From Ulota crispa (taxonomy: Eukaryota; Streptophyta; Bryopsida; Orthotrichales; Orthotrichaceae): DNA of 64,000 nt. Position 1 is the first letter of the stretch. Each line of letters begins with the position of its first letter. The translations under genes were made by a program, and so were the position numbers. Below, one piece after another: positions 12,853 through 64,000 of this stretch. The stretch lies in NCBI GenBank assembly GCA_963920765.1, contig OY987242.1:27118002-27182001 (forward strand). Direction: 5' to 3'. The notes beneath the pieces are model-generated. The model was given only the letters and a program-made list of their open reading frames with translations. It was not told where the DNA came from and searched no databases.

Positions 12853-13775
12853 CCCTTAAAGGACCATGGCCTTTATTTTGTCAAAAGACACTCAAAATTG
12901 TCACCTCTATGGCAAAAAGTAAAAAAGTTTGAAAATCAAGCATTTTGCATATCTAACCATAGGATCTTGTGCTAGACTACTATAAGAATGTGTCATACAA
13001 AACTCAAGAACTTTGACCGCACAAATTGGAAGATATATGCATTTAAAGCGTAAAAAATAGCTTGTTTTGCACCTTGCTTGATTAGATTTTTTAACTTTGA
13101 ACATTTTAAACTTAAAATTTTTGCTCCACAGAGTTTGGAATTCTATTTTTGCATGGTGGGAAGTTGAGTTGGAAATCTTGAGAAAAAATAAATAAATAAA
13201 TAAAACTTAATTTTCATTTTTTTAAAAACCATTAGGTAGAAGAAGGTATGAGATTGAACAAAAACTTAAATTGCTAACAACTTTGCAATGGAATTGAAAT
13301 GCAATAATCCCAATGGTAAGATTGTTCTAGAAAGCAAACTTCACCCTCTCCAATAAATTTTTTTGAAAAAATGTTAAAATTGCATTCAAAAATGAAGTTT
13401 ATAAGTTATTTTTTCAAGAAGATGCTTGAGTTGCCCGAAAAACAAGATTGTCCATAACTTTCTCATAACTAGTCCAAATGGAATGAATCAAAGCTTCAGA
13501 TGTAGAAAAAGTTATAATCTATAAGAAAAAAAAATTAAATTTTTTTTAAAGCTTTTTCCAAATTTTTTTTTGCTGCCCCTAGTCCCCAAATTTGTGCTTA
13601 TTTAGGCATAACTTTTGCTCCTTGGCATCAATTGGAATAAAAATTAGATTCCCCAAAAGCTAATGTGTTTTTCTATCTTCAAAAAAAGTTTCAAAAAATC
13701 AGGACAAAAATTGAGGCCGTAGGTACCTGCCCAAAATCCCATTTGTCCCCCAAAGGGACAACGGTCCTTTAGGGG
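12853..13775. mobile_element. TTAA-flanked piggyBac-like MITE, family A, 923 bp
   Basis: The left end is CCCTTAAAGGACC and the right end (inverse) is CCCCTAAAGGACC. TTAA lies immediately outside each end (12849-12852, 13776-13779). The sequence is homologous, in reverse, to the element entering the window's right edge at 63305; shared segments include the strings around gtacctgcccaaaatcccatt and cttgcccgaaaaacaag. No transposase reading frame. Confidence 0.75.
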
Positions 13776-13826
13776 TTAAGGTCCGTTCGCACTAGGTCTT
13801 TAACATGGAGAAACATCAATGTTAAG

Positions 13827-13955
13827 CCGGGTTTAATTTCATGGCAAATGACTATTTTGGTGTCGCGTCCCCATTGGAGAATATTGGGAGGGAACAAAAA
13901 CTATTCAGGAAAATCTGTTAGAGGTAGCAAATTTTTGCCAAAGAATTAAACCTTG
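13827..13955. mobile_element. hAT-type MITE, family H1, 129 bp
   Basis: Ends are CCGGGTTTAATTTC and (inverse) CAAGGTTTAATTC. A perfect 8-bp target duplication ATGTTAAG lies at 13819-13826 and 13956-13963. Longer relatives are at 35173-35459 and 39858-40142. Confidence 0.75.
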
Positions 13956-13963
13956 ATGTTAAG

Positions 13964-15783
13964 GGAACACTGTAGATAGCATGTTCACACTAACTTTTAA
14001 AACTAGTGCTGAACCTATGGGGAGGAAGCTTTTAAGGCGGTGTTTCAGCCGAAAGTGGCGCAAGAACTTTGAGATCATTGGAGAAATTAGAGACTTTACA
14101 TAAGTATCAAATCTAGTAGAATTGAACATTTCCGACTTGTGCGTGAGGTGTTTTATAACAACCTTGAATGGCAAGGGTTACCTAACACGAGTGCTTTGAG
14201 TTTCACTAGGAAATCTCAACAAGAAGACACCCAATGTCTCCTTTATGTGCGAACACCACAACTTTTAAAGACATATATTGTGAAAAATATACGTAGCAAG
14301 TGGAACACAAGACCCTCTATGTGAACTCGTCATTTGCACATAACATCTCTAAACAAAATACTAGGCCTTGCTTTCCAGGTGGTGTGAAAAGGAGAGTTTG
14401 AAACTTGTTATCTCTTACTACGTATTTCTACAACTCTTTCCGTAAAACCCTCTACAAATGCACCTTTAGCCTCTTGCAGCATAATTGCTTGTCAAAAGCA
14501 AGATCAACTTCTTCATTGTTGTCATTTGTGAATGAGGAGGGTTCACAATAAGTCCTTGGTCCTAATTGTAGAAATCTATCTCAAAGACCACATCCCAATT
14601 TTGGAACTTTAAAGGGGCAAAAGTGAATATTTTATTTTCTTGAATAAATATATAATTTTTTTTTGGAAGTTGACTTTTGAGTTGGGACCCATTTATGCCA
14701 AATTTAAAATTTGAAGCAAAATCCCACATTTTAGGGGTCAAAATAGAAAATAATTTCCTACAAGCAATTTCCAAGGGAATTAAGACTTGGCACTTGGAAT
14801 GTAGTGTGATAGCTAAATTCTTGAGCTATTTGTCTCTAGGAGGTCACTCAATGTATTCTTTAGAAATCAATTGTGATCAAGTAAATTTTCCACCCCTATT
14901 TATTTTTTAATAAATTTTGATTTAGCTCCAAATTTTTGGATATTCTCAAAAAATCATTGCATGTTGTATGTGAAAATTTTGGATTCAAACAAATTACACA
15001 AGATATCCAAATGCGCATTTGAAAATTGCACTAAAATGGTTGAATTTTCACTTCACAAATATTTTTCAGGTTAGCATTTGAATGACAATTGCATCCAACT
15101 TTGGTATACAAAAACTATAATCAAGCCTTCATTTATTGGCAATTTAAAAATATTTAATTTTTTTACCATATAAAATAGGGGGCCAATTTTTTTTCCAACT
15201 ATATAGTGTATTTATTTTTTTCCAAAATTTGCAAGTAATTATTTAAGATGATCTTGTTTTCAATAATTCACAATGTAAACTTTTGATATAGAAAAACACA
15301 CTACAATTTTTTCAAACTATTTAATTGATTTTTACAATATAAGATAGGGGTCAAAGATTTTAATTGCACGTGTATCAAAATAAAATAGGGAGTGCATCCC
15401 CCAAGCTATTTGTAGAGTAGCAAAAGTTGTCCGCATAAACTTCAACTTGAGTTGCATTTCAAATCCATACCATGGTTGTCTAAGTTCCCAACTTCCTTTG
15501 TCCAAATTGAGAGTCATACCTAGTACCTTTGATATATGCTTCAAGTAATAACATTTAAAACTTGTATTTGGGTTTGCATCCAAAATTGCCAAAATCTAGA
15601 TGTGATTTTTAATTGATTTTAGATATGCATAGTTTAGGAATAATAATCCATGTGCAAAACATTGGGATATTTCTTGATGTTTTGAATACATAATATACAA
15701 GATACTGGGAGATTTATGGAAAACATCAAGAAGTTGTGGAAAATTTTAGGAGATTTGTGCAGATATTGAGAGATTTATATCCC
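13964..15783. other. AT-rich intergenic DNA, nothing recognised
   Basis: Only chance open frames shorter than 90 codons. No end-defined element or conserved motif was found. Confidence 0.4.
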
Positions 15784-15787
15784 ATAA

Positions 15788-16013
15788 CCCTTAAACTTTA
15801 GAAAGGCCCTTTGCAACCAGTACAATACAGGGTATTTTTCTTGTGTTTGGAATAGATCCACACCTCTACTACATTTGAGATCAACAAAGAAGTTGGAATG
15901 TAAATAAATGCGGTTCTAGTGAGCTATTTGAGATCCCAAGTTAAAATTTCTTATTGGTAGCAAATGCCAAATATATGGCAATGTATCTATTAAGCCCTTG
16001 GGACGTTCAAGGG
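15788..16013. mobile_element. TTAA-type piggyBac-like MITE, family B, 226 bp
   Basis: A reverse-orientation copy of the short family seen at 41714, 52421 and 57699; shared blocks include aatagatccacacctctactacattt and gcggttctagtgagct. Ends are CCCTTAAACTT and (inverse) CCCTTGAACGTCC. Flanks are ATAA and TTAT, each one base from TTAA, so the duplication has decayed. Confidence 0.65.
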
Positions 16014-16017
16014 TTAT

Positions 16018-17079
16018 GTGAAGATGTCCATATATTTTCCAAACAAAACATAAAATTACATAAATAGTTTAGATTTAGTTAGATAGGGTTTGTGGCTTAA
16101 GAAAACTACTTTTTAGTGAATTTTTGGAGAAAACTTGTTGAATGTTAATCTTAAATTCAAATTGATTTGTACCATCTTGTCTAATTCTTAAACCATGAGT
16201 CCTTACCATTGACAAGATCATAACATTCAAGAATGGGACTTTTGATTGTTTGGGCATTTTCAAAAAAGGAAAACCTATTTGGGGGTTTGAAAGTCAAAAT
16301 CACATACTTGTATGACTTGGAACTCTTAGAATTAGGTTTTGTAAGTATGTTGAAAGTATGCATATTACAATTCAAACCAATTAGGCCCGCTTATAGTGAG
16401 AAAAATTATTTAAACAAAATAATTTACAAATCTCTTTGTTCAAAAGGTAGAATTTGAGGGTGCACATTGTTCATCCATCTGGCTTGAAAGTTTGTTTGTT
16501 GATCTTTTCCATAATTCAAAGTATTTAAGTAATTACATAATTAATTTTACCACATTCTCAAACTTGTTGCCCATCCTCACCAACTCAAAAAAATTGTTTT
16601 GAACTATAAATTTTGAGTTGCAACTTAGATTGCTCTAAATTTTTAGGCCTTGAATGAAACACATGCCACTGATACTAGTCTAGATTTCACAAAAATCCAA
16701 ACAAAATTGCTCTAGCTAGGCCAAGGCCCTAGAATTTCAATTCCAACCTTTTTGAGATTATTTCATGGCAAAGGGGCCTAGTTTCCTTGCCTTTAGTCAA
16801 AATATAGCCCAATGTTGTCCTTGCGTAGAGCTTTATGCCAAAAAGAAGCCCTTCCAACTTTTGTTTCCAACTACTTTATAGCTCTTCAAAAAACAAAATT
16901 ACCAACTTACCATCAAAGTCACTTCACAATTCACATGAGTGAATGTGACAGTTCTTGCATGTTTATTCATAATTAAACCATCCCATTCACTTTTTGACAT
17001 CTCAACTCTGGCATAATTCATCATTGATTGCATCAACTTATCATCCTATAGTTACGGTATACTAGCCATGATGCAAATG
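16018..17079. other. AT-rich intergenic DNA, nothing recognised
   Basis: Short chance open frames only; no end-defined repeat recognised. Confidence 0.4.
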
Positions 17080-17087
17080 GGTTGAAG

Positions 17088-17591
17088 CAGTGGTCCCAAA
17101 TGTGGCCGAGTTTAGTAAAAATCCCTATAAAAGATCTTTTGCTACAAAAAATGTAACTGTGTCAAATTTAGGAATTTAGCACTCTTAATTTTGTAAGTTG
17201 AGAGCTGATTTGGCATAATTTTTTTTCTAACAATTAGCCTAATAATTCTATAAATTATTCTCCAAAAATGTCCAATGTCAAACCAAAAAAATTGATATGC
17301 CAAATATTATAAAAGTCTTTAAGCTTAACTAACAAAAGAAGGTCAAGGTTGATTTCCGGTGGGCTCAATCTATTGCAAACTCTATACCAAGGGCTAATCT
17401 TAGAAAATTGAAGATTCTTAGGAAAATGCTTGATTCTACTAAAAATTGGTTGAATGCCAAATAAGAACAATTTTTTTTTTTTAAAATGCCTAATCTTTGT
17501 GTGTTTGGCGCCGAATCTACTCTCAACCTACAGTACAAGTAGTGCTTTTAGCCACTTGAGCTAAGTTCGATAACCACATTTGGGAACACTG
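17088..17591. mobile_element. hAT-type element, family G, 504 bp
   Basis: Ends are CAGTGGTCCCAAATGTGG and (inverse) CAGTGTTCCCAAATGTGG, 17 of 18 bases shared. The 8-bp flanks GGTTGAAG (17080-17087) and GTTTGAAG (17592-17599) differ by one base. The ends resemble the shorter copies at 30090-30250 and 57620-57996. It may be a longer member of the same family; no transposase frame was seen. Confidence 0.7.
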
Positions 17592-17599
17592 GTTTGAAG

Positions 17600-18847
17600 G
17601 GTTGTGGGCATGAGATGGTGCTTGCAGGTCAACGCAAAATATCATCTCAAAGCAACACAAGATAGTATTCCTACGGTGCGTGCTGATTGCAGTGGCAGAA
17701 TTTAAAAGGCAGCCAGCTTAGACAAGGCTTGCTTCTGATGGTTTTTGGTTTGAAATCTTTGAACAGCAGAAGCAGTTACGGTCATAGAACCACAATACTG
17801 TAGCCCAGCCACGGTAGAGCGGAAAGAGGCACGGTCACCAGCGCTGGAGAGCTGCATGCAAAGAGAGCATGAACGACGGGTGAGTGTACATGTTCACTTG
17901 AAAGTGACGAGGGCGGGGGCGGGTGAGCGTGATGCAGAAATCAGGCGGGGTGAGATGGCGATGGCGAGATGGCGATGGCGATGGCGATGGCGGGGGAGGG
18001 AGGAGGAGGACTTTAATCACGACGCCGGAGATGGTTTTCTTAGATTTGTTGTTTGGAATTGAAGAGAGGACGGGCATTGATGCCTCTTCACTCCTCCGGG
18101 AATAGCCTGCATTCAATTTAACAGAGATCGGCAAGCAGAGGTCATGAGAGATCATGAGAGATCATGTCGTTGGTGATGGTGTTTGGAAGAGGTCGGGTTT
18201 GATCTTATGTCATTGTTGTTATGGTTGCGTCGGAGGTGTTTGATCAGATTAGTACTCGGTGAGAATAGACCACGAGTTGATCGAATTTGTTTTTGAAGAG
18301 GTTGTGAGAATGGCGGGTTTGGTACGATCGGTTCGAGGTTGAGTTGAGGAGGTGCAGGATTGCAGATTTATAATGTCCGTCAATCAGAGCGCTTGGCCTC
18401 AGCCGCTCTTTTTTTCTTGGACGGTTATGCATTTTGTTTTGTCAGCATTTCGGTTGTAATTAGACGGTAATGTCCGTCACTACGGTTGTCAGTTCGTGTT
18501 AAAAAAATTCCCTTTCTCTGGCTCGACGGGGCTTTTCCTGTTATTATCCAACTCCTTGTCGAGTTTTGAAAGTCCTCCTTCACCGCGTTTCGGAGTTGGT
18601 GAACCGTTTGGTAATTTTATAGCGGGCGAATGAAGGTGCGTTGGTTGTACAGAGGTGTCTTCAGTGCAAATTTTCCAGGTTTCTATTTATGTGTGGTTCC
18701 TGCGCGGAAACTCGATTGCGCTACACAGGACGCACGTTTGCATGCAGAATGTGGCAAAGTTGGAGATTGGTGGAGTAATCGTTGCGACTGGTGATATTGT
18801 GATCTTCACTTCTTGCAATTGGAGGCATTTTGGAAGTGTCGCGGGCG
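17600..18847. other. Kinesin upstream region (promoter and 5' leader)
   Basis: GC rises sharply compared with the DNA to the left, and no repeat family is recognised. A hexamer run lies at 17953-17992. Transcription start and any leader intron could not be placed. Confidence 0.45.
17953..17992. repeat. Imperfect GATGGC hexamer repeat
   Basis: About six units of GATGGC, one of them interrupted, within a purine-rich tract upstream of the kinesin gene. An open frame through it is chance. Confidence 0.7.
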
Positions 18848-18874
18848 ATGGAAACAGAAGGCAACGAGAAATGA
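18848..18874 (+). promoter_or_regulatory. Kinesin upstream ORF 1 (8 codons)
   Basis: ATG at 18848 and stop TGA at 18872-18874, sharing bases ATGA with the start of the next upstream ORF. Presence in the mature leader is inferred from closeness to the coding start. Confidence 0.4.
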
Positions 18875-18915
18875 AGCTTGCTTGGAGTATGGAGGAGTTA
18901 TTGCAGTGGCTGTAG
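18871..18915 (+). promoter_or_regulatory. Kinesin upstream ORF 2 (14 codons)
   Basis: ATG at 18871 and stop TAG at 18913-18915, 19 nt before the kinesin start. The ATGA overlap with upstream ORF 1 is a geometry that permits termination-reinitiation. The TGA of ORF 1 is also the nearest in-frame stop ahead of the kinesin frame, which supports ATG 18935 as its start. Confidence 0.4.
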
Positions 18916-18934
18916 TAACAATTGTGCGAGAATC

Positions 18935-21900
18935 ATGACGGTACCACTGTCGCCCTCGCAGCATGATTCACCGGCCTTAGACGACGGTTGTTCGTCAGTA
19001 CGAGTGGCTGTACGTGCTCGACCGCTAGTCGAGAAAGAGATTGTAGAGAAGTGCAAAGAATGCGTCTCCTATTCTCAGGATGGAAAGCAAGTGGTTCTAG
19101 GAAAAGATCGCCGGTTCACTTTCGATCATGTTTTTGGCCCCGTTATCAGCCAGGACGACATTTACATCGACTGCGTCAAGCCCCTCGTCGAAAGCTGCTG
19201 CGCCGGGTAAGCAATCGTCCTTTCCTGGATGCATTATTGAAGCCACTGGACCTTGATTTGCTTGTTTTCCTGAAAAAATGTCTGGTAGGGAAAATATCTG
19301 CGAATTGCAAAGGGAAATTTTGTATACCCTAAAATCGTATGCGTGTGCGGGGTTATTGTGGTTCATACAGAAACCGAAAGAAATCTCGCTGTGATTTTCC
19401 GTGTCAAACTCCTCATGTTGAATTAGACTTGTCTTGGACGCTCCACCGCGCAGCCTGTAATTTAAATGGAATCGTTCTGCTGAGAGACTAATGGCGAGGC
19501 ACTTTACTGGAATTTTGGCATTCTTTTACTTCTCGCATCGGGCACCGAAGGGGCAGTGTTCGGTTAAGAGCTGCAAATTGCCCTTGATGACTTAAGGCTG
19601 GAGAAGAACAGGGACAATTTCTGTCAGGTTTTAGTTCTTGACAAGGAGCATTTTAAGCATTGCACAGTTGATTCATTATGAAGGGTCGCAGGGAACTGAA
19701 CAAAGGAGTGTTCGTCTCAATCCTCCTTTCGGAGTTACTATAACAGAATTTCTAATCAAACTTTGATTGGTGTGCTTTGTGTATCGTTTAAAAGTCCCTT
19801 TCCCTAACTTTCTGTGATTCCTCGTCCTATGCTCTCAAGCTCTTTCGCTTGGGCTTTTAGACGATGTGCCCGAGGATACAAGATTAGGAGGCTTCGTCAG
19901 TGCATTTTGTATAGCATGCTTGGTTACAATTAAGTATGCTTCCTTTTTCGTCGATCACGCGACTCGTACCCTGGGTGACATTACTCAGCTTTAATTTGAG
20001 GTTACTATATTTCAGTATCAAGTTGAGTATATTTGGAAGCTTGGCAAATTCATGTCTATCAAAATTCAGAAGTCGTGAAATTTAGAAATTCAACGTGTAG
20101 AGGGGGCCTGGTATTATAAGGAAATCTGAGGCGGAATTTTCTGCTGGGCACAGGTACAATGCAACGGTGCTGGCATACGGACAGACAGGCTCCGGGAAAA
20201 CCTTTACGATGGGTTGTGGTAACAACGTGTCATTGTTGGAGGAGGAGCTTGGCATTTTACCTCGTGCAATTCGCCAGCTTTACGAGAATGTGGAGGAGCG
20301 CAGCAACCAGGCTGAGTTCCTCGTATTCCTTCTCGCTCTTTTCTCGATTATTTTCAGCAACTGCTTTTCCCTCCCAAGAGTTTGATAATTTTTGCATATG
20401 AGAATAATCCTTCCAACTGCGTTGTCATTTTTTTTGTGACTGGACTTCTGGTTTGGATTCTCATTTTGTTGAATGTTAAGAGCAAGATGAATGTTTCATG
20501 CTGTTGCAGATCAAGTGTGCTTATGTTGAAATTTACAATGAGGAGATAAAAGACTTGCTCCACCCAGACACGCCTTCAAAGTCCATTTCCATTCGTGAAG
20601 ATGCAAATGGCGACATAGTGCTTGCAGGTGTCAAGGAAGAAGTTGTTACCAACTTTGAGAGCATGATCAGGTATCTAGACCTATTTTCGTGACAGGATTT
20701 GATCTTATTAAGCATAAACCTGGGTAGGTAATTACAGAGAAGTTGCTATGAAGTCTCTAAGTAGCCGAAATTACAGACAGTTTACAACTACTAACGAGAA
20801 GATGAGTCATCATTGCTCAGTTACTGCACATTGGATTTGCTTAAGGTTTGTGGATTTGCTCCAGAAAGTGCGATATGAACTTGTTAGCTTACCTAAGATT
20901 TTCTTTCCTGTTCCTTTTTTCATTGTGAATAATGCTAGTGATCTCCGCCTGGTTAATCTTGAAGCTCGAATTTCGATTTACATTAGTGCCTTAGACACGG
21001 GTTCAGTTCCTTCTCAACTTTTTGCAGGTTTCTTGAGCATGGGTCGGTTTTTCGCACAACAGGAAGTACATTAATGAACCAGCATTCGAGCCGGTCGCAT
21101 GCTATCTTCACCATCATTGTCGAGCAGCGGAGCATCCTGGAATGTGCTAGTAGCAATGATGTCATCACCGCAAAGTTTCACTTAGTGAGTCATGCGAATG
21201 CCCCTTACACTGAAGCTGGTCCAAATCTGTCGCAACATAACCAAGACAGTGAAATGCAACCGATGTTGGTCAGGGAATCATAAGGAGTCGATGTTGAAGA
21301 GCTGAAATGAAAAAATTCTGCAAATATGACCACCGATACTGCACGGAATCTGCATTGTGTAGGATTTTCTGCGAGTCTGAGCTACGTGATAATGAGGTGT
21401 TGCAGGTTGACTTGGCAGGCTCGGAAAGGGCAAAGCGCACCGGAGCTGTAGGCATGCGTTTTAAAGAATCTGTTACTATCAACTGTGGGCTTCTTGCTCT
21501 GGGGAATGTAATAAGGTATTATCCATGGGCCGCCATTCTTTTGTTCGTGTCTCTGTTGGTTATGCCTGCATTCCATAGGGCCATGTGACCTTCTTTAAGC
21601 TGTGATAGATCTGTGGTGTTTTTGAATAAAGCATGTCGTTTGCTAGTAAATCTTTGTGGGCTACTTGTTTACATGTGAAGTGCATTGGGAGATGAGCGAA
21701 AGAGGTGTCAACATGTACCTTACAGGGAATCAAAGCTCACACGCATGCTGCAGGTTCGCTCACTTTCACTTTGAATTTTTGCGTTGAAATTAGAACCGAT
21801 TTTAATGCTTTGCTAGTTCGCTAGATGCTTATTGCAATTTCATCTAATGTGCCTTCTTTGCATGATCTGTCGGTACTAAATATTATAGATGGTCTTTCTG

Positions 21901-37268: not shown

Positions 37269-38005
37269 CCCCTAAAAGCCCACTTGTCCCTTTGGAGGAT
37301 AAAATGGATTTTGGGCAGCTCACAACAACTGGATGTTTCATCTTTTTTCTTTGAAATTTTCACACATGATGTGTCCAAGGAGACAGGAGTAGCTTTAAGG
37401 CCCAACAATTTTCATAACTTTTGACTTCATGGTTCAAAAGTTATTGCATGATATGTTGTTTTTTTGAACTCCGGGCAGCTTGGGCAGCTCAAAGAACTTC
37501 TTTTTAAATAAATTTTTTTTTTAAAATTTTAAATTGGTTTTTTAAACTTATATGTATGTAGGAAGCTTTGGACCATTGGATTCCAATAAGTGAGGCAAAA
37601 GTTACAAGAAGTTTTAGTTTGTGGGTAGATATGGAGTCTCTCAAAACCATACCTACCCGCAAACTAAAACTTCTCGTAACTTTTACCTCACTTACTGAAA
37701 TCCAATGATCCAAAGCTTCCCACATACATTAAGTCTAAAAACCAATTTCAAAAAAAGATTAAAAAAATGTCATTTTTAAAGAATTTTTTTGAGCTGCCCA
37801 GGCTGCTCATAGTTCAAAAAAACAATATATCAAGCAATAACTTTTGAATCGTGAAGTCAAAAGTTATGAAAATTGTTGGGCCTTAAAGCTACTCCTTGGA
37901 CACGTCATATGTGAAAATTTCAAAGAAAAAAGATGAAACATCCAGTTGTTGTGAGCTGCCCAAAATCTATATGTTGCCAAAAAATAGTGCTTGGGCTTTT
38001 AGGGG
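37269..38005. mobile_element. TTAA-flanked palindromic piggyBac-like MITE, 737 bp
   Basis: Ends are CCCCTAAAAGCCCA and its inverse, with TTAA directly outside both (37265-37268, 38006-38009). The whole element is a foldback: the run through gcagctcacaacaactggatg on the left is mirrored near 37945, and ggtagatatgg-type sequence lies at the centre. Confidence 0.78.
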
Positions 38006-38717: not shown

Positions 38718-39455
38718 CACTAAAGGACTAGGCCCTTTTTTTTCTCAAAAAACACTCAAAATTGTTATTTTTAAATATTTAATTTCAAGAACAATTTCTT
38801 TCTAATTTTATATATTTAACCATAGGATCTTGCATACTATTTATGCAAGTAGATATGGTGAAACTTTTGTGACGTTTGACCAAATAGATTGAGAAATGTG
38901 ATCATTTGAAATTAACCTCTATATATATATATATATCCTTTGCCCAAGACCTTTAGGTCCATTTGACCACATTTAGTGAGCATTTTTTGTACTATGGGTG
39001 CTAAGAGATTTGTTCAGCATGCTTTAAACCATATTAGACATACTCTTAGTAGTTTGCATGACCAATGAAGACATAGAACACCCGACATGGGACTGCATTA
39101 CAAAGATGTGCTTGAAATTCACACTACAGTGAGATATTAGTTTTGCAAAACTAATTTCCAAACAATTTTTTGGCTGATAGAAATTCAAATAGTGGGTTGG
39201 GAAATTTTAGCTTTATTGACAACCGCTAAAACAAATTGAAAAAAAATGAAATCTCTATTAACTAATACAATTCAAAGGTTAATATATTCATCTAATACAT
39301 ACACTATTGCTTTGGACACTCTCCAATGAAGGGTCACACCTTCATTGGTTGCCCTTGGATAAAGTTAAGGCAATTGGCATGCCCAATTTGCCCTTTGATT
39401 ATCAACTTCTCCAAAATCTCCCATAAGTTTTGAATGATAAATTTGATTTCAATAA
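38718..39455. mobile_element. TTAA-type element, family C, right end lost
   Basis: TTAA (38714-38717) then CACTAAAGGACTAGGCCC. Collinear with 48609 onward (shared ccataggatcttgca, actgcattacaa and ggttgcccttgg). The match stops at 39455, where a Tourist-like element begins. Confidence 0.6.
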
Positions 39456-39585
39456 GGGTATTTTCACACTTGGTGTAAAGAGTGGTATTAGCAAAGGAAA
39501 ATTAGATGCATTTGGACAAATCTTTAGATTGTATTCATATTGCTAATACCCCTCCTAACGGCTAACACCAAGTGTGAACATACCC
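39456..39585. mobile_element. Tourist-like MITE, 130 bp
   Basis: TIRs GGGTATTTTCACACTTGGTG and (inverse) GGGTATGTTCACACTTGGTG. Preceded by TAA; the right flank is TGT. Same family as 8779-8901. Confidence 0.62.
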
Positions 39586-40254: not shown

Positions 40255-41434
40255 AGGGCTCGGTTTACTGCACATATGTTGATTTGGGCCCCAGCAGTGT
40301 CAAGGCTAAAAAAGAACTACTTGGTTTAGCTGCCTCGCCCGACAAGCTGCCCAAGCGTGCACCTAGAAAAGCTCGTGTAACTGCATTTCAAAACTTTCAT
40401 CCATCTGCAAGGACAAGACGCGGGACCTCATTTGAAATCTCAGGAGATTTCAAGGTTGAAGACCTCCCAGTGACATGTGGCCTCCTGGCATTGGGAATCG
40501 GGCTAACAGGTAGGGTCGTGGAGTTTTTGAAAAAAAAAACACTATCTTCATTGTCTTCATTTTCCTGATGTTGCAAGTCTCTCACATCTCCAAGACTTGT
40601 ATACATTTTGCAAATCAAATTAGTCCTAGTAATTTGGAACTTACACTTTCTTTAACCCCTAAAGGACCAAGCCCCCTTTTTGGGGACAAATGGGATTTTG
40701 GGCACGTACCTATGGCTAAACTACTTTTTTGTAATTTTTTGAAACTTTTATGGAAGATGGGGAATTCAAAGATCTGCGTGGACATCTAATTTTTTCCTCA
40801 TTCCAACATTTATTGAAGAAATTGCAAATGAATTTATGAGAATGTTTGTTTGGCTAGTAGCCCAATAACTTTTTTACAAATTGCATTTTTTTGAAATAAA
40901 AATTTGAGGTTAGTTCTTTAGACTTACATATATGTGGGAAGCTTTGAATCATTCAATTCTAATTAATGAGATGAAAGTCATGAGAAGTTTAGTTTGCGTG
41001 TAGGCATAGTTTTGAGATTTTCCACACCTACCAGCAAACTAAAACTTCTCATAACTTTCATCTCATCAATTAGAATTGAATGATTCATAGCTTCCCACAT
41101 ATATGTAAGTCTAAAGAACTAACCTCAAATTTTTATTTTAAAAAAATAAAATTCTTAAAGAAGCTTTTGGGTTGCCCGGCAAACAAAAATTCTCATAAAT
41201 TCATTTGTAACTTCTTCAATAAATGTTGGAATGAGGAAAAATTAGATTCCCTCACAAATCTTTGAATTCTCCATCTTCCATAAAAGTTTCAAAAAATTAC
41301 AAAAAGTAGTTTAGCCATAAGTACATGCCCAAAATCTCAAAATTCTCGCAAGGGGACTTTGGTCCTTTAGGGGAAAAAATCACTACACAAAATATGTTTA
41401 TTGTGCAGATTCTTATTACATTAGAATGTTGGTG
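40255..41434. repeat. Left arm of a large inverted repeat, interrupted
   Basis: Sequence 40255-40651 and 41378-41434 is present in reverse at 44937-45400 with high identity. The arms are about 460 bp without the insert, and the spacer is about 3.5 kb. On the minus strand of this arm (and the plus strand of the other) runs the same 73-codon frame beginning MICKMYTSLG. The origin of the segment is not recognised. Confidence 0.75.
40656..41373. mobile_element. TTAA-flanked palindromic piggyBac-like MITE, 718 bp
   Basis: Left flank TTAA (40652-40655) then CCCCTAAAGGACCAAG. The right end GGTCCTTTAGGGG is followed by AAAA where the unoccupied arm has TTAA (45000-45003). Internally palindromic around about 41010; the blocks acttacatatatgtgggaagc and its inverse mark the inner arms. 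Confidence 0.8.
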
Positions 41435-41713: not shown

Positions 41714-41957
41714 CACTTAAAGGACCGCTCTACGTATTATATAGTATATACAGTGCCGTATAACTGGCATTTGCTATCAATAAAAAGCTTTATTTTGGGA
41801 TCTTGACGTGGATCTTGACTAACTCACTAGAACCGCAGTGATCTATATTCTAACTTCTTTGTTGATCTCAAATGTAATAAAGGTGTGGATGCATTCCAAA
41901 TACAAGAAAATACCAAATATTGTATTGGCCGCAAAGGGCTCCTTGGTCCTTTAAGGG
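41714..41957. mobile_element. TTAA-flanked MITE, family B, 244 bp
   Basis: TTAA at 41710-41713 and 41958-41961. Ends CACTTAAAGGACC and (inverse) CCCTTAAAGGACC. The interior matches 52421-52646 and 57699-57910. Confidence 0.75.
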
Positions 41958-42998: not shown

Positions 42999-43340
42999 CC
43001 CCTAAACGTAAAATTGGTCATTGCAACCAACCCCTCTCCAGTGGTGTGGTAAACGCCCATCCATTTTCATATTGTTTCAAAAAGTTGTAAAGATGATTAA
43101 TGTATGGTGCTCTCATGAAATTGCAAGAAGAGCTACATGAAACCTAACACCTTATCTTTGAATCTTTTCACTATTTGAATTACCAAAAAATATGAGTGCA
43201 TATGGTATAAATTTTTGCCTTTCCATGATGGACCATGTGTTTATGATCACTTCTAAAATAAATCAAATCAAGAACAACTTTTTCCAGACAAGTTTCTTGG
43301 TATACATTGTACATTTTTTGTCTGTCTTAGCATTTAGGGT
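42999..43340. mobile_element. TTAA-flanked element with diverged interior, 342 bp
   Basis: TTAA at 42995-42998 and 43341-43344. Ends CCCCTAAACG and (inverse) ACCCTAAATG. Shares only the first eight or so terminal bases with the other TTAA elements, so it is either a separate subfamily or a chance pairing. Confidence 0.5.
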
Positions 43341-48604: not shown

Positions 48605-49374
48605 TTAACCCCTAAAGGACTAGGCTTATTTTTTCTCAAAAAAAAAAAACTCAAAATTTTTATTTCTAGTCCTTTTCTAATTTTTACAAATCTATCCATA
48701 GGATCTTGCATTAAATGTATGCAAGGAGACATCCTAATATTTTCACAAGATTTGATTAAACAAATTGAGCAATGTGATCATTTGAAGTTATGTATTAAAA
48801 GATTTTTTTGACCTTTGTCCAAAATTTTCATGTCCTTTTTACTATATGTTGTGAATGTTTTTTGCACTATGGGTGTTGTAAAGATTTGTTCAACATGCTC
48901 AAAATCATGTTAGGCATGTCTTCACAAGCTTTCAAGGCAAACAAAGACATGTAACACACCCTACATGGCACTGCATTACAAGCATGTGCTCTAAATTTTC
49001 ACTTGCATTGTGGTCTTTTGCAAACCAAATTTTTTGGGGGTTGATTTTGAATTATACAATCCAACTAATGAATTGGATGAACTTACCTTTATTGACAATC
49101 CAATCAAAAAACCAAACCTCTAGTAGCTATTGCATTTCAAAAACAACTATATTTATCTCATGGAGTTATTTATTTATCTAGTATACAATTGCTTTTTATA
49201 TCCCCCAACAAAAGGTTATACCTTCGTTGGTTGCCCTTGGGAGAAGTCAATGAAGAATGATATGCCCAACTTGTCCCTTAAATGAAAAAATCCATAAAAC
49301 ACCAATAACTTTTGGATTGTAAATTGGGTTTCAAAAATATATACATATCTGCATATATAAACACACACATATAT

Positions 49375-50305: not shown

Positions 50306-50550
50306 AATTACGGATTTGTTGTCATTAGTTATAGAACTGTCAAGGACTACCTCCAAGGACACTTTTGAGGTGTATTCTATTATATATATAGATATATACA
50401 TACATATACTTATACATACATATCACCATATATGTAGCCCTTGCAAAACTTTTTTCTAGAAGAAAGGAGTTCAAAAAAGTTGATAAAAAATCCCAATAAA
50501 AGAAGCATGCCCAATCCATTTTGTCCATAGGGACAATGGTCTTTTAGAGT

Positions 50551-52278: not shown

Positions 52279-53430
52279 CCCATAAATTACCATTGTTCCT
52301 TTGGGGGACAAATGGGATTTTGGGCATGTATTTACAGTTAAACAACTTTGAGTGATTTTTGAAACTTTTATTGGAGATGGGGAAGTCAAAGACCTACGTG
52401 GTCATCTAATTTTTTTTCAACCCTTAAACAACCATAGGGCATAGTATATACATTGCCATATAAACAATATTTGCTACCACTAAGATGTTTTAATTTGGGA
52501 TCTCAAATAGCTCACTAGAACCGCTTTTATTTATTCTCCAATTTCTTTGTTGATCTCAAATGTAGTAGAGGTGTGGATCCATTCCAAATACAAGAAAACT
52601 ACCCCATATTGTACTGGTTGCAAAGGGCCTTTCAATTGTTTAAGGGTTAATTCCAACATGTATTGAAGAAGTTAAGCAAGAATTTATCAAAACTTGGGGA
52701 GGAGGGGTAGTTTGGGCAAGGCCTTTTATGTATAAGTGGGTGTTGACTCCAAAGAGGTTAGTCCTTCTGGGCACAAGGAGTGGACACTTGGGCAAAGGGG
52801 AGTACGTGGAGTGGAAAGTGCCCATCTTGGAAGATTCCCAACCCTCCATTCCTTTTGCCCCTTGTAAAACTTGGTACTTTCAAATTTTAAGCAATTTGTG
52901 TATTTGTTTATTAATTTTAATTTTTCCAAATTGTAGTGGGCTAAGAGCTCTTGCCTTTCATTGTTTAGACTAATGTAATTCAAATTTCTGAATTTTACAT
53001 AAATCCCCCAATTTTACCTAGTGCACTTGCAAATTTTAGAACCTTCCGACATTCAAAGATTTTTTGAAGTATGTTTTACGTACACTTCCAATTCATTTGA
53101 TAATTCTTCCACATGTACCTAACTTGGTCTTCTACATGGGGTAAATAAACTTCAACTTTGTGTAGAGCAACTTTTTTGCTACAAGAGTGGTCAAAGGCTT
53201 CAAAAACAATTTGGGCAACAGGGGGAAAAAAAAATCTTCACTTTAAATCTTGATATCTCACTTCTTACCATCTGAAATGAGCTCATTTTTTTCACAAGTA
53301 CCACGCATAGTCTAGGGCAAGATCCTATGGTTGGATTTTCAAAAAATATAAAATCTACGTTTCTACTAATTCCCTCAAAAGCGGCAGTTTTTAACAATTT
53401 TCATAGAAAAAGGGCTTAGTCCTTTAGGGG
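52279..53430. mobile_element. TTAA-type element, family A, with nested family B copy
   Basis: TTAA (52275-52278) then CCCATAAATTACCATTG. The right end GGCTTAGTCCTTTAGGGG is followed by TTCA. The left part is collinear with 40656 onward (gacaaatgggattttgggca, tggggaagtcaaaga). A family B element interrupts it at 52421-52646. Confidence 0.62.
52421..52646. mobile_element. TTAA-type MITE, family B, nested, 226 bp
   Basis: Flanks TCAA (52417-52420) and TTAA (52647-52650). Ends CCCTTAAACAACC and (inverse) CCCTTAAACAATTG. The homologous stretch at 40790-40815 runs straight from ctaattttttcctca into ttccaacatttattgaag, giving the unoccupied state. Confidence 0.72.
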
Positions 53431-53465: not shown

Positions 53466-53620
53466 AATATTGCATTTACGTCGCCTTAACAATTAGGTTG
53501 CCTTGCCATGGAAAGTTACCTCATGACTCATCACTCAGCCACTTGAAGGTGCCTGCAACTCTCTGGATACTTGAATTTCACATGGTTTACAACCTGGGTG
53601 TAATTTGGTGCCTTGTGCAT
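53466..53620. mobile_element. MITE family F, copy 3, partial
   Basis: Starts AATATTGCATTTACG and continues with caattaggttgcctt, cctcatgactcatca and ttgaatttcacatggt as in copies 1 and 2; the right half is missing. Confidence 0.55.
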
Positions 53621-57611: not shown

Positions 57612-57619
57612 TCTAGCAC

Positions 57620-57996
57620 CAGTGATCCCAAATTTTATTCTTACTTTTAGCTCAAGTGGCTAAAATCACTGCTAAAAATCTAAAATTTTCAAATTTAACC
57701 CTTAAAGGACCATAGGGCATAGTATATACGCTGCCACATAATCAATATTTGCTACCAGTAAGAAGTTTTTATTTGGGATCTCAAGTAGCTCACTAGAACC
57801 GCTTTTATCTATTCTCATTTCCTCAATGTAGTAGAGGTGTGGATCCATTCCAAATACAAGAAAACTACCCCGTATTGTAGGTTGCAGTGGCATGCTCAGT
57901 CCTTTAGGGGTTAATATTGTGAAGCTCAAAAGTTTTTTACTTGCATAATGTTTTTTGTAGCAATTTTACCATAATTAGCTAGTTTAAAGATTGTTG
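57620..57996. mobile_element. hAT-type MITE, family G, containing a family B insert
   Basis: Perfect 8-bp target duplication TCTAGCAC at 57612-57619 and 57997-58004. Starts CAGTGATCCCAAAT. Removing the 212-bp insert and one TTAA leaves 161 bp, the exact length of the reverse-oriented sibling at 30090-30250. Confidence 0.82.
57699..57910. mobile_element. TTAA-flanked MITE, family B, nested, 212 bp
   Basis: TTAA at 57695-57698 and 57911-57914. Ends CCCTTAAAGGACCA and (inverse) CCCCTAAAGGACTG. The hAT sibling in the kinesin intron has a single TTAA at the corresponding place. Confidence 0.82.
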
Positions 57997-58004
57997 TCTA
58001 GCAC

Positions 58005-58466
58005 TAAATCAAATGTCATTATCAGAAATGTTATTAATATTGTTTTAGTGCAAAACTTGTACAAGTATAGTCTATAATAAAACAATTTTATTTCAACATA
58101 CATATTTCAATCCATTTTGATGTACATTATAGGAACTACTTGGAATGAATTCATTTAGTATTGGGAAAAAAAAGCACTCTTATGATACATTGTGAAGAAT
58201 GATTTTTGTAATAAGAGTAAATGTGAGCCAGGTTTTTCTATGCTTCAATTGCTCATGCAATTTTAAATCTTGTTTGCAAAACATAAGGAGGTCTCATGAT
58301 GTAGGGGACATAGGCCTTCCAATTATTATGCTAAAATATATGAATGTTCTCCATAAATCTTTCAAGTTCTGCAAAGGGCTTTCTGAAATCTGCAATATAC
58401 ATACAAATCGTTAAGAGATTTCATAATGTTTTGCTTTTGAATTTTTATCTCTAGACATTGGTTAGT
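58005..58466. other. AT-rich intergenic DNA, nothing recognised
   Basis: A 71-codon plus-strand frame (58199-58414) has no recognisable family. Confidence 0.4.
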
Positions 58467-58470
58467 TTAA

Positions 58471-59397
58471 CTCCCGAAGGACCATGCCTTTTGTTTTTTT
58501 TGTCAAAATCACACAAAACTGCCACTTCTAGGGGTTGAGTAAGAAGGTGGGTTTTTTTTTTTAATTTTAAAGTCCAACTGTAGGATCTAGCCTTAAACTA
58601 AAAGAGGTATTTGTGAGAAAAATCAGTTCACTCTACATGGAGTGGAGGGATATATTTACATTTGAAGTAAAGGGATTTTTTTTCCCATGTTGTTTGCAAA
58701 TTTCAAAAGCCTTTGACCACTCTAACATGAAAAAAACTGCTCTACCCAAAGTTGTGCTTTCAATGTTCCATGTAGGAGATCAAGTTAGGTATATGCAAGA
58801 GAATTTTCAAATCAATTGAAACTATACAACACACGGGAAAGAAATAGTACATAAAAAGAAGTAGACAATGAGTCAAAACCCTAAATTGTTTAGAATTTGA
58901 TTATTGAAATGAAAAATGCAAATCCCAACAGTTCTGATGTTGTAATAAAAAACGTACTTCCCTCCAATTTTTTTTTTTCAAAACATTTAAAATTGAGTAA
59001 AATAAAGGACTTTAAAGTTTATTTGAGAGTAGAGAATCCATAACTGCTTGCAAACAAAAACTCCTCATATATTTCATCTCATTGATTGAAGTTTGATGAT
59101 TCAAAGCTATCCATGTATCAAAAATTCAAAAGAACCAATTTCAAATTTTCATTTTTGGAAATGTACTATTTAAAAAAGTTTTTTGAGCTATCCAAACTGC
59201 CACTCCTCCCTTGCTTTTGATATATTTTTGCATAACTTCTACATTAAATGTCAAAATGAAGAAAAAATTAGATGCCCACCTCTCTCAAAATTCCTAAGCT
59301 TCATAAAAATTTTCAAAAAATCACACAAAATAGCTTATCAAAAGGTACATGCCCAAAATCCCATTTGTCCCTTGAAGCAACAGTGGTCCTTTAGGGG
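58471..59397. mobile_element. TTAA-flanked piggyBac-like element, family A, 927 bp
   Basis: TTAA at 58467-58470 and 59398-59401. Ends CTCCCGAAGGACC and (inverse) CCCCTAAAGGACC. The right-end string catgcccaaaatcccatttgt is shared with the other family A copies. Confidence 0.72.
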
Positions 59398-59401
59398 TTA
59401 A

Positions 59402-59734
59402 CATTAATTAAACATGGTTTAAATTGTGACGGTATCTTTCATACTTTGCAATATCTTTGATACTTTGCAATTTTAGATGATGGTTTTATGGACACTATAA
59501 TATTCCAACAATCACATTGTTTGCACCAAGATTGTTAAAGTATTTTTCAATTTGCTTCAACGAAATACAACTCCTCAATTTTCACCTAACCAGTTCGGTG
59601 TGGATGTATTAGCCGGTTTCCAAACTCCTAGTTTTGGTATTATATTAACAAAATAAACAAAAACAAAAGTACTTGACACTAGATCCTCAACATATGATCA
59701 TTCTATTTGCATTAATGACATGACAGTTAAGAAC
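59402..59734. other. Spacer between two inverted family A copies
   Basis: AT-rich; contains ccggtttccaaac-like sequence near 59600 but no end-defined element. Confidence 0.35.
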
Positions 59735-60324
59735 AGTTTTTGTTTCCATGCAGTTAGGGATTCTCTACTCTAAAATAAACTTTGAAGTTTATTTATTTTA
59801 CTCAATTTTTAATGTTTTGGAAAATGTATAAGATCAAAGGATGGAAAATGATTGTTAATTACAACATTACAACTATTGGGAATGGCATTTCTATATATTT
59901 TAATTAAAATTATACCAATTCATTGTTTTCAATCATTCTCTACTTCTTTTTACTTACTCTTTTTTTCCAATATGTTCTACACTTTCAAATGATTTGAAAC
60001 ATTTTTGACATGTACTCTACTTAGGTAGAATAAGGAATCTAGAGAAGCATCACCCAAACAACCTTTTTATCTTAACAATTTCACCTTCTGAGGGATAATT
60101 GCCCAGTTTTCCACATGAACCCAAACAACTATTGAAATCATTCTATCTTCAAATCCACCTAGTAAAAAATTCTGAAAATTTTCCCACATCTTTTAAAACT
60201 AATGTACTACACGATCCTACAATTACATATGCATATAAATGTTTTAGTTTTAGTTTTTGTTGATACCATAAAAATGACAACTTTTGAGAGTTTTTGGTGA
60301 AAACGGAGCTTGGTCCTTTAGAGG
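59735..60324. mobile_element. TTAA-type element, family A, inverted and truncated
   Basis: Right end GGTCCTTTAGAGG followed by TTAA (60325-60328). Its reverse complement is collinear with 58471 to about 59060 (for example ttgagtaaaataaa and gagtagagaatcc). The other half is missing, so the pair forms an inverted duplication of one family. Confidence 0.65.
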
Positions 60325-60513
60325 TTAAAAGCTTATTTGATATTCACATTCACAAATTTTCTCAATTTAATCATTTTTTTCTCCTTTTTTTTCATACAAC
60401 TCAAACCAAATACAAAGATACTATTCATACATCAAAACACTATTTCCCTTTTTTTCTTTATCATTTAATTTTATTAGGAATTTCACAACCTATATTACTA
60501 CATCAGTGTATCT

Positions 60514-62035
60514 TTAAATCTCTCCACCTACATTGTCACTTGAATCTTTCATATCATAAAACAAGTCTTGCAATGCATCTTCATTGACATGTGCTGAACT
60601 TGATAAATAAATAGAAGTTTTGTAATCTTCTTCTTTTGCTTCTTCTTTGTGGTCCTCTCTTTCTTTCACATTAACTTCTTCATCTTCAAATTCAAGTTCG
60701 TCACTTCTTTCAGGTATTGTGAAAATTCCTCCTACCTCTACTAGAAATGACACTTCATTATATTCATTCACTTCATTGTCATCTCTTTCTATAACTATAT
60801 CACTTAGAGTAGTATTACTGCTGCTATCAATATTAGAATTGACTTCAAACCTTTTGAACCTAGATTCTACTTCAATGACAACGCTCCAATTTTTATCCTT
60901 AGTATCAACCATATAAAAGACTTGGAGAACTGCATTTAGCTCTATTATAGGCTCATTTTCAATATCTTCTACCGAAAAAACCTTATTGGTATGTACTTTA
61001 GTGAAACCGCTCTCATTTTGTTTTAGAGTTACACCACTTTCAGCATCATAATACTCTACTTTCAGTAATACATCATTATCAACTATTGGTCCAAAATTTA
61101 CCTTTACTATATCTACTATAGGGTGATTGCAAGAATGACCTGTACTACATTTTGTCCCCCTCACCTTCTGCGGCTTGTTTTTTGCTTGTAACTTTTGCAA
61201 AAGAAGTCATATTGACTTGTCCTTTTAGGGTGACGTGCACATGCAAGTTATTGACATTCAATGATTTTCTGGTGTTTCTTAAAATTATTTTGCTATTTTT
61301 AAGCAACCCCCAAATAGGTGTTTACCTTGGCCATTTTGGAGGGTTTTAGTACTATTTTGGGTTCAAAAAAGCTTTTCTAAGGCTGTAAATCAAGGGTGTT
61401 GTTTATGGAGCATGCTTACATGCATTTGTAGAAGGGTTTTGCAAGATTATAAATTCCATGGCATTTGCATTGTCTCAAAGTGGGCATCCTATCTCCCTTC
61501 ATTGGCAAAATACGAAGAAATTCCTCAGCAAAGCAATTGTACCATGTGAATGTGTTTAATGCGTTTTCAAATGGCCATTTTTTGTTTTAATTTTTTGGAT
61601 TATTTTACTATTTTCTAAAAAGCAAGAAAAAAATTGGCTTTTTGTTAATGATTTTGTTTTGTGCATAACTTTTAGAATAAAAAATTTCTAAGTTTAGATT
61701 TTCACAAGTATGCTATTTTAAGTGCTTTACAAATTTTCCATATTTTATTTTATTTTATTTTATTTTATTTAAAAAAATTATTTCAAATGCTCATAGTATT
61801 ACATAGTACTATTAGTTTTAAGGGTGTTTGAGACAAAACTGACAGGTCATTCTTGCAACTACCCTATATAACCATAATAGAATTCATTTTCACCTTCCTT
61901 ATTTTTGTATGTACCTCGTACAATTGAATCACATGTCACAGTTCAAGTTACATCTACCTTATATATCCAGTATTATAGAAGTTGGCATACTGATTTGGTC
62001 CACGAGCATATTCTTGAACTTCCGGATGCATATTT
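60514..62035 (-). pseudogene. CACTA (En/Spm) transposon relic, DUF4216 region
   Basis: Minus-strand remains of the protein found with TNP2-type transposases in plant CACTA elements. At the 5' side, near 62031-61965, a fragment containing HPEVQEYARGPNQY matches the conserved HPE..ARGP block that precedes DUF4216. After a frameshift and stops, GENEFYYGYI leads into a 744-bp insertion (61121-61864). Beyond it the frame resumes as VDIVKVNFGP, then ESGFTKVHTN, NEPIIELNAVLQVFY and KNWSVVIEV, all DUF4216 landmarks, and ends in an acidic tail at 60514. The open frame seems to begin near 61200, but its first 27 residues are translated from the insertion. Clearly inactive. Confidence 0.8.
61121..61864. 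mobile_element. 744-bp insertion with 23-bp inverted ends, in the CACTA relic
   Basis: Ends are GGGTGATTGCAAGAATGACC and (inverse) GGGTAGTTGCAAGAATGACC. TATA lies outside both ends (61117-61120, 61865-61868). Removing the element with one TATA rejoins the DUF4216 frame as EFYYGYI-VDIVKVNF, without a stop. The superfamily is unclear: a 4-bp TATA duplication is unusual, and a TA site with later change is possible. Confidence 0.7.
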
Positions 62036-62039
62036 TCTC

Positions 62040-62935
62040 CTTAGTATATTTCTTCTCCAACCTTTTTTAACACCCAATCTTTGTATGCAAGTACTTGAAA
62101 TTCCTCTGGAAATGGTACCCCTTCACCAACTTGGTCTTTGAAAGCAACTTTTTGCAATTCTTTTTCATATCATATAATTTTGTATTGAGATTGGTACGAC
62201 TCAAAACACTTGGCATTTTGCAATTTGTATGTATGAACATGTCAATTGTACCAAAATAATAAGAAATTTGAAGAACTAAAATTATAAATAAGCACATGAT
62301 TATTTGTATTTAGAATATTTAATAATTTCTTGAGCTTAAATACAATCTTTTCATTTCATGATAATGCCTTTGAATATCCATTAAAAAATCATTTAGATCA
62401 TTACTCTCAATATTTTCAATAACATTTAATTTTTTTTGGAATCATTTTCACTTCAACCTTTCTAAAATGAAAAATAATACATCTCTTAACTAATTATTTC
62501 ACTTTAAATTAAAAATACATTCTTTGACATATAAAAACTAAATAAATTAATTGACATAGTTTTAAATGTCAGGATGTAAACACTCTGATATTTTCATGAT
62601 GGAGAATTTGATCAAAATTTTATTACACCTTATTCAAAAACCTTAATATTATTAAAAATATATTAAAAAGACATCAAAACAAGTTCTTAGTACATGTTAA
62701 TTTTAATGTTAGTATTTCAAGTTATGCGCACTAAAATAAACATAAGGGTTTTATATAAACTCCTTGTTTTTAACATGTTTGTACTTATGTGTCATTAGAA
62801 CTTATTTAATTCTTTATTACACAAAAATCATACTTGATCAATAAGTGACGCAGACATTCTTTTTGCTCTCCAGAGTTTGGGCAAAATCAAACCATCCTCC
62901 TTTGCTCCAACTTCAATGTTCCATAATTATGGAGC
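62040..62935. other. AT-rich interior of the CACTA relic
   Basis: Separates the DUF4218 and DUF4216 regions. No protein similarity was recognised; it may hold introns or further insertions. Confidence 0.35.
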
Positions 62936-62939
62936 CATT

Positions 62940-63292
62940 GGATCCAGCTTACGCAAGTACTCAGCAATAGAATATTGCTTCTCATGAAGCATATCCCCTA
63001 GCCATGCTCCCTTTTGGATGTTTTTTTGTCCGACATGATCTATTAGGTTCTTCATGTAGCGCTTTCAAGAGTACTTCCACTTCAAATGAACTAGACCAGT
63101 TAATTTTACTTCATCTATTAAGTGTACTAATAAGTGCACTTGACTATCAAAAAATGTTGGGGACATATGCATCTCAAACATACACAAAGTTTCAGCCAAT
63201 TCCAGTTCCATTGCTTGAATTTGTGTTCTATCTATACCTTTTTGACAAATCCAATGCAATACTTCTCCATGCCTATGGATGGTACTCTCCAA
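62940..63292 (-). pseudogene. CACTA (En/Spm) transposon relic, DUF4218 region
   Basis: Minus-strand frame with the order LAETLCMFEMHMSPTFFD, VHLLVHLIDEVKLTG and HLKWKYS, the hallmark of DUF4218 in plant CACTA proteins. A TGA at 63067-63065 replaces the codon before KRYMKNL, which continues the domain (QKGAWL, SIAEYL) to about 62945. Upstream, a TTAA-type element begins 9 bp beyond, so the TNP2 transposase core was either cut off or lies past the window. Confidence 0.82.
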
Positions 63293-63304
63293 ATTTTTAG
63301 TTAA

Positions 63305-64000
63305 CCCCTAAAGGATCATTTCTCTATTCAACAGACAAATGGGATTTCGGGCAGGTACCTATGGCCTCATTTTTTGTCTTGATTTTTTGAAACTTTTTTT
63401 GAAAATAGAAAAACACATTAGCTTTTGGGGAATCTAATTTTTATTCCAATTGATGCCAAGGAGCAAAAGTTATGCCCAAATAAGCACAAATTTGGGGACT
63501 CCAAGCAGCAAATAAAATTCTTACAAAATCTTTGAAAAAAAATTCACATTTTTTTTCTCATAGATTATATATTTTTCTCCATCTGAAGCTTTGATTCATT
63601 CCATTTTGACTAGTTATGAGAAAGTTATGGACAATCTTGTTTTTCGGGCAATTCAAGCATCTTCTTGGAAAAATAACTCATAAACTTCAATTTTGAATGT
63701 AAGTTTAACATTTTTTCAAAAAAATTTGTTTGAGACTGTGAAGTTTGCTTTCTAGAACAATCTCACCATTGAGATTATTGCATTTCAATTCCATTGCAAG
63801 GTTATTAGCAATTTGAGTGTTTGTTCAATCTCATACTTTCTTCTACCTAATGTTTTCTTTTAAGAATGAAAACTAATTTTTTGTTTTTTGTTTTTTTCCC
63901 AATATTACCAACTGAACTTCCCACCATGCAAAAATAGAATTCCAAATTCTGTGGTGCAAAAATTTTAAATTAAAAAAGTTCAAAGTCAAATAATCTGGTT
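63305..64000. mobile_element. TTAA-flanked piggyBac-like element, family A, runs off the right edge
   Basis: TTAA (63301-63304) then CCCCTAAAGGATC. Collinear, in reverse, with 12853-13775; both carry gggcaggtacctatggcctca, a run around tttggggact, and the aagatgcttgaattgccc stretch. About 230 bp of the far end lie outside the window. Confidence 0.75.

Follow-up and report, generated by a model that had tools for sequence, protein, structure and literature searches.

A 64-kb stretch of contig OY987242.1 (hereafter the window; the contig has 41.4 Mb and the whole genome 274.8 Mb) raises the question of which transposon superfamily supplied its many short repeated elements. About 12 of these elements have the 13-bp ends CCCCTAAAGGACC, or close variants of them, at TTAA, and the first-pass annotation of the window took them for a dense group of piggyBac-like elements in a plant genome. 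Our analysis indicates that they are very probably non-autonomous members of the piggyBac superfamily, of the type called miniature inverted-repeat transposable elements (MITEs). The 17 bases formed by TTAA and CCCCTAAAGGACC were found, with up to three mismatches, at 17 window sites, against 0.15 expected from shuffles, which bears out the earlier count of about a dozen elements with common ends at TTAA. As is typical of MITEs, the elements are short, of high copy number and without a coding frame: the two-ended copies in the window span 212-1,152 bp, and none of them contains a reading frame of 150 or more amino acids (aa).

TTAA is the target site and is duplicated on insertion

The left flank is TTAA in eleven copies, as had been noted (starts at 12853, 37269, 38718, 40656, 41714, 42999, 48609, 52279, 57699, 58471 and 63305), out of 14 starts given at the time. 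Two other starts have ATAA (15788) and TCAA (52421) as their left flanks. The remaining one, 59735, had to be withdrawn, as there is no end at that position and the recognizable end of the copy is a right end at 60324. On the right side, TTAA had been said to flank most copies, and it does so at six of the eight right ends that lie within two mismatches of the 13-mer (13775, 38005, 41957, 57910, 59397 and 60324, but not 41373 and 53430; a ninth match, at 52307, was excluded as the palindrome arm of an element). The window has 12 ends that differ from the 13-mer by at most one base; 10 of them have exact TTAA, and all 12 have the outer T.

Genome-wide, the outer T is present at 8,154 of 8,479 exact 13-bp ends, the other 325 being sites with VTAA. 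Because the outer T, which is expected to vary at TA sites, stays constant, the target is not TA alone. The annotation's preference for a 4-bp TTAA site over TA is therefore retained, and the outcome that it had itself considered, flanks with only TA conserved genome-wide, was looked for and is not what the genome contains. Over all the DNA examined, TTAA was present at 70 of 74 ends, with a mixed position -5 (T27, C22, G14, A11), although this count leans towards TTAA because 20 sampled regions of contig C1 were chosen around exact sites of TTAA with the 13-mer. The one-mismatch ends in these 20 regions, which had no part in the choice, have TTAA in 12 of 13 cases.

Because many of the elements are inserted in other repeats, it was possible to look for empty sites by joining the flanks of 42 two-ended copies and comparing them with related sequence (the copies have ends with at most three mismatches to the 13-mer and flanks at most one base off TTAA; three of the 42 overlap another copy under a different start). 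A comparison site was obtained for 15 of the 42 elements, and in six of these cases the relative is uninterrupted and has a single TTAA. The window element at 57699-57910 has its empty site at window 30248-30089 (76% over 161 bp), and the window element at 37269-38005 has one in a relative in locus L011, while its best-scoring relative (L043) has TAAA. The other four elements with such a site are L011 5826-6752, L013 5384-6314 (91% over 240 bp), L025 4159-5071 and L026 3936-4473. Taken with the flank counts, these sites show that TTAA is the target and that it is duplicated on insertion. A 3-bp TWA site, as for Tourist, was also considered and does not fit the symmetric TTAA on both sides.

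Transposases, coding elements and the subterminal palindrome

A profile search of the genome with DDE_Tnp_1_7 (PF13843) gave at least 120 matches that passed the curated cut-off (best E = 1.3e-73), a lower bound from 116 scored candidates out of 528. The same family had 0 matches in 14 control genomes, and nothing is built on that result here. The domain of L034, when compared with solved structures, matched piggyBat (E = 2.4e-25) and piggyBac (E = 6.4e-24), and the positions of the three active-site Asp residues align in the piggyBat alignment, as read by eye. DDE_Tnp_1_7 was also the sole Pfam family in three transposase frames. In a comparison of 15 transposases, identity was 30-56% between lineages and 69-81% within three pairs, and the divergence between lineages favours long residence or several arrivals over one recent arrival. 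A stop codon is present in 110 of the 120 listed matches. A Cys/His-rich tail was noticed by eye in one frame of L031 only, and the transposase of L025 lies outside the 120 listed matches and was met by chance.

Fifteen transposase loci were examined for their ends, against 120 listed matches, and a TTAA/CCC end was recognized at the expected side in eight of the 15. In four transposase lineages these ends lie 1.3-2.1 kb downstream of the domain, and two elements, L042 and L045, which measure about 5.0 and 5.2 kb, have such an end on either side. L042 has the ends CCCCTCATCGCCAA and CCCTTCATTGCCAA; it aligns with L043 at 90.5% identity for 5.03 kb, and the alignment breaks off no more than 1 bp from the TTAA ends of L042. 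The L042-type end pattern occurs at 30 genome sites. Three are accounted for by the ends of L042 and L043, and no listed transposase lies beside any of the others. L045 is flanked by CCCCTTGAGGGCTA and CCCCTTGAGGACTA, and its pattern has exactly two genome sites, both its own ends. L033 and L041, which are 72% identical, have the common 3' end CCCTTTA(A/G)(T/C)GACCATGG; ends of this type number 24 genome-wide, and three of them are correctly oriented and follow a listed transposase at a distance of 1.6-2.1 kb. The case at C6:4939366, 1.6 kb after a further transposase, is independent and was not used in defining the pattern. L030 has the 3' end CCCCTAAGCACCCAGCCC, which, among 100 listed positions out of 259, is found again at C1:6992842, 1.9 kb downstream of a different transposase. 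The numbers expected by chance for the whole patterns were 0.03 (L033/L041) and 0.14 (L030), and the C6 and C1 recurrences are independent coincidences of an end with a transposase. L034 and L036 have one putative 3' end apiece, and none of the listed ends downstream of a transposase was in the wrong orientation.

Among the ends found at the transposase loci examined, those nearest to CCCCTAAAGGACC are CCCCTTGAGGACTA, CCCTTTA(A/G)(T/C)GACCA and CCCCTAAGCACCCA. Beyond CCC, the paired ends of L042 and L045 share 26 of 44 positions with the consensus of the window (the mean of the shuffles was 11, and none of 50,000 reached 26), a comparison in which ends of the same element do not count as independent. 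All nine coding-element ends together agree at 57 of 99 positions, against 26 when shuffled; the former comparison is the fairer one, because some of the nine ends had been selected for being TTAACCC sites, which abound in this genome. Of the DDE_Tnp_1_7 transposases bounded by the same ends for which the annotation had proposed a genome search, the transposases are present, but none at the 15 loci examined, out of 120 listed matches, has exact CCCCTAAAGGACC ends. A parent element with another type of transposase, which the annotation had also considered, did not emerge, although no search with a Kolobok or Sola profile was made. Its equation of TTAA and CCC ends with piggyBac is upheld by the resident DDE_Tnp_1_7 genes and their TTAA/CCC ends at eight of 15 loci, and the short elements themselves have the 5'-CCC (YY) and the short inverted repeat of about 13 bp that mark piggyBac ends.

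Several other features of the transposase loci were recorded. A good CCCCTAAAGGACC-type end near a transposase domain (L044 7433, in a search of L029-L045) turned out to belong to a truncated short element, and at 5872-6459 of the same locus a perfect tandem array of ACAT (147 copies) lies downstream of the transposase domain. Among the few listed domain matches that are free of stop codons are C1:1180709-1181995 (563-aa frame) and C8:19570986-19572215 (472-aa frame). Both of these are single open frames in which the domain match is split by an unmatched stretch, and they are candidates for recent copies or host genes. Pairs of equal or nearly equal transposase matches in opposite orientation, 15-110 kb apart, were found at C7:18203169/18223004, C10:676128/785346 and C2:36765124/36779670, which suggests inverted duplications.

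In the piggyBac of Trichoplusia ni, the palindromic repeat found at bp 17-33 of an end is the binding site of the cysteine-rich domains, as described in a passage of PMC7351741. Among the 42 short elements, 24 have a palindrome of at least 6 of 7 pairs (for example, TTGTCCC-TTTGG-GGGACAA) centred at bp 23-25 of one end, and none has it at both ends, the shuffled rate being 0.6% per end. With the requirement lowered to 5 of 7 pairs, 32 elements have the palindrome at one end and none at both (shuffled rate 4.8%). Many of the palindrome-bearing elements are of common ancestry and hence not independent. For the whole set of 91 ends, pairing averaged 2.64-2.66 of 7 at centres 24-25, compared with a largest shuffled mean of 2.45. 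The 5' ends of L042 (6/7 pairs) and L045 (7/7, corrected for offset) also have a palindrome centred at 25, while their 3' ends reach at most 5/7 at any centre tested, so that the one-sided design is common to coding and short elements. The palindrome at about bp 17-33 is thus a feature in common with piggyBac, though not a strictly defining one.

Abundance, classification and alternative explanations

The exact 17-mer of TTAA and CCCCTAAAGGACC occurs 8,154 times genome-wide (4,072 + 4,082) and its reversed control 0 times; at up to two mismatches, there are 38,725 sites, against 40 for the reversed pattern. Supposing that every end is paired, this would correspond roughly to 19,000 two-ended elements, although not all ends have a partner. 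With two mismatches allowed, the window contains 15 sites, compared with a genome average of 9.0 per 64 kb, so that it is no special local cluster, and the dense group described earlier is rather a genome-wide feature. The 42 two-ended copies fell into seven groups of two or more and four singletons (70% coverage), in agreement with the at least three interior families proposed from the window. The largest group has 20 copies, mostly near 930 bp, and there are three groups of four (about 240, 540 and 650 bp, one longer) and three pairs. Identity within groups ranges from 57% to 94% (overlapping copies left out), so the ages are mixed. Pairs of elements on one common TTAA were seen at L011 4414/4419, L022 3209/3214 and L023 7024/7029, as though the site duplicated by one element had received the other. 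At L020 6254 and 8001, an identical element end with an identical 10-base flank is repeated 1,747 bp apart, probably through a tandem duplication.

That the elements work like piggyBac and belong to its superfamily is well supported. A piggyBac transposase encoded elsewhere in the genome would pair the two short ends of an element, which would then be cut out and inserted into a TTAA, duplicated on insertion. The cut-and-paste chemistry would pass through hairpins, excision would be precise, and the palindrome may be bound by a cysteine-rich domain; one resident transposase lineage presumably moves, or moved, the CCCCTAAAGGACC elements. In common with T. ni piggyBac (6x67/6x68; passages of PMC7351741) are the TTAA target, the similar transposase sequence with aligned catalytic Asp positions (read from the piggyBat alignment) and the palindrome, whose centre at 23-25 corresponds to the repeat at bp 17-33. 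The present system differs in the end sequence, in the length of its two-ended coding elements (about 5.0 and 5.2 kb) and in having the palindrome at that position at one end only, whereas the passages on T. ni describe the repeat at both ends with different spacing. Animal piggyBac MITEs, such as those of coral (PMC2872659) and mPok of Pokey (PMC4912750), are short non-coding elements associated with piggyBac, as here; they are likened by description, and the host here is a plant.

Several observations weigh against this classification. Clean single-TTAA sites were lacking in nine of the 15 comparisons, which gave own-end matches, matches at the end of another element or relatives with another tetranucleotide. 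Seven of the 15 transposase loci (L025, L031, L032, L035, L037, L039 and L040) have no recognized TTAA/CCC end of their own, and L043 keeps its 3' end without a recognizable TTAACCC 5' end. No transposase bounded by exact CCCCTAAAGGACC was found in the 15 loci, two sub-patterns of the window ends (41 and 87 positions) had no position adjoining a listed transposase, and neither blastn nor a profile of 12 transposases revealed coding remnants inside the short elements. Moreover, 18 of the 42 elements have no palindrome at either end (6/7 pairs), and the profile of 91 ends has other pairing peaks, 3.19 at centre 28 (28-29) and 3.55 at centre 15, the latter overlapping the 13-mer itself, so that the position at 24-25 is not unique in every family.

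The elements might instead belong to another superfamily that duplicates TTAA, Kolobok or Sola3, with the piggyBac genes being coincidental. Kolobok, which makes TTAA duplications too, is reported in chlorophytes and rhodophytes in a passage of PMC9587614, and the 15 transposase loci examined did not include the exact partner of the CCCCTAAAGGACC elements. The Kolobok termini given there are, however, 5'-RR and not CCC, and the piggyBac coding elements of this genome have TTAA, CCC and further end bases in common with the short elements, so that we regard this explanation as very improbable. Smaller still, and close to negligible, is the probability that they are Tc1/mariner (Stowaway-like) elements inserted at TA, with TTAA as a mere local preference: TA is contained in TTAA, and Stowaway at TA is a class of plant MITE (passage of PMC10004981), but such a site is contradicted by the flank counts: 8,154 of 8,479 exact ends, and all 12 window ends, keep the outer T, and position -5 is mixed.

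More serious, although still unlikely, is the explanation that the elements are of piggyBac type but that the transposase which spread them has gone as a mobile element, its coding copies being lost or decayed or surviving as a host gene only. Such a loss would agree with the lack of an exact-ended coding copy in the 15 loci and with the stop codons in 110 of the 120 listed matches. On the other hand, ends were found for only eight of the 15 loci, out of 120 listed, so the partner may simply be unsampled, and the 8,154 exact ends, together with copies that are still 92-94% identical, argue against great age. It would be a long shot to suppose that a long-lived, diversified plant piggyBac population gave rise to tens of thousands of short elements and that the transposase behind the commonest of these is now a host gene and no longer a transposon, possibly one of the stop-free copies; if true, this gene would be the plant counterpart of the animal PGBD genes and of the ciliate PiggyMac.

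The preferred classification, as non-autonomous piggyBac elements, places in a plant a superfamily that is best known from animals and has been studied mainly in animals and ciliates, and whose namesake is a widely used transposon for seamless gene transfer. In the open-licence literature (most subscription papers lie outside it), we found no paper on bryophytes or other land plants that describes piggyBac elements together with their ends and transposases, which fits the annotation's remark that they are scarcely described there. The remark needs qualification, since PiggyBac is included in a list of angiosperm MITE superfamilies (passage of PMC10004981). A table for C-fern also gives 1,230 PiggyBac copies amounting to 122 kb (passage of PMC6890710), and the description of a tree refers to piggyBac-like elements of archaeplastids (passage of PMC9942806), while the match of a Niphotrichum moss paper to 'piggyBac' was the word 'piggybacking'. 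The C-fern and angiosperm repeats bear the same superfamily name in plant genomes (PMC6890710, PMC10004981), but the passages in question give labels and counts only, whereas here the TTAA site, empty sites, and transposase genes with their ends are documented side by side, and ends are far more numerous. Because the superfamily had already been labelled in plants, the news lies in the host, the scale and the demonstration. This genome, in which several transposase lineages accompany roughly 19,000 short relatives, shows that the piggyBac superfamily can become very abundant in a plant. The native plant ends and transposases are offered for comparison, and the one-sided palindrome suggests a design feature kept outside animals.

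Host genome and individual elements of the window

The assignment to a plant genome is supported by matches to the LEAFY SAM domain (six, one strong and five weak) and the ZF-HD dimer domain (eight, four strong), located on large contigs that include C1. From the distribution of these families, the host is a streptophyte-line plant, most likely a land plant. LEAFY is present in one or two copies in most plants, a number exceeded by the six matches here. The window itself contains ATG2 exons on the minus strand at 1551-3586 (ATG2_CAD, E = 3.5e-18; a second frame was weak, 9e-4, under the cut-off), and long frames up to 7254, which have no ATG2 match in Pfam, may be part of the same gene. Because the window lies inside a 41-Mb contig and its elements are beside ATG2 exons, contamination is unlikely.

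TTAA is present on both sides of the 923-bp non-autonomous element at 12853-13775, with a palindrome centred at bp 24 of its right end, and of the elements at 37269-38005 (737 bp, with the ends CCCCTAAAAGCCC), 41714-41957 (244 bp), 57699-57910 (212 bp) and 58471-59397 (927 bp). The 718-bp element at 40656-41373 has an exact left TTAA and the right flank AAAA. The 1,152-bp element at 52279-53430, with a left TTAA and the right flank TTCA, seems to contain a copy of the kind of about 240 bp, starting at 52421. A copy of about 342 bp at 42999-43340 has a left TTAA and a weak right end (five mismatches) at TTAA, and a decayed copy of the family of about 240 bp, at 15788-16013, has the left flank ATAA and a right end with four mismatches.

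The plus-strand elements at 38718-39472 and 48609-49337 begin at TTAA with the left ends CACTAAAGGACT and CCCCTAAAGGACT, respectively, and 39472 and 49337 are the limits of their similarity to other copies. On the minus strand, the element at 59679-60324 has the right end CCTCTAAAGGACC at TTAA (60324); its left end was not found, and 59679 is the limit of similarity. The plus-strand element at 63305-64000 starts with the left end CCCCTAAAGGATC at TTAA, and the window stops before any right end. A minus-strand fragment at 50432-50547 resembles other copies. Finally, a 230-aa frame on the minus strand at 60514-61206 has a weak match to DUF4216 (2e-6, 28.7 bits, just under the cut-off), a family linked with CACTA transposons, and is probably a fragment of such a transposon.

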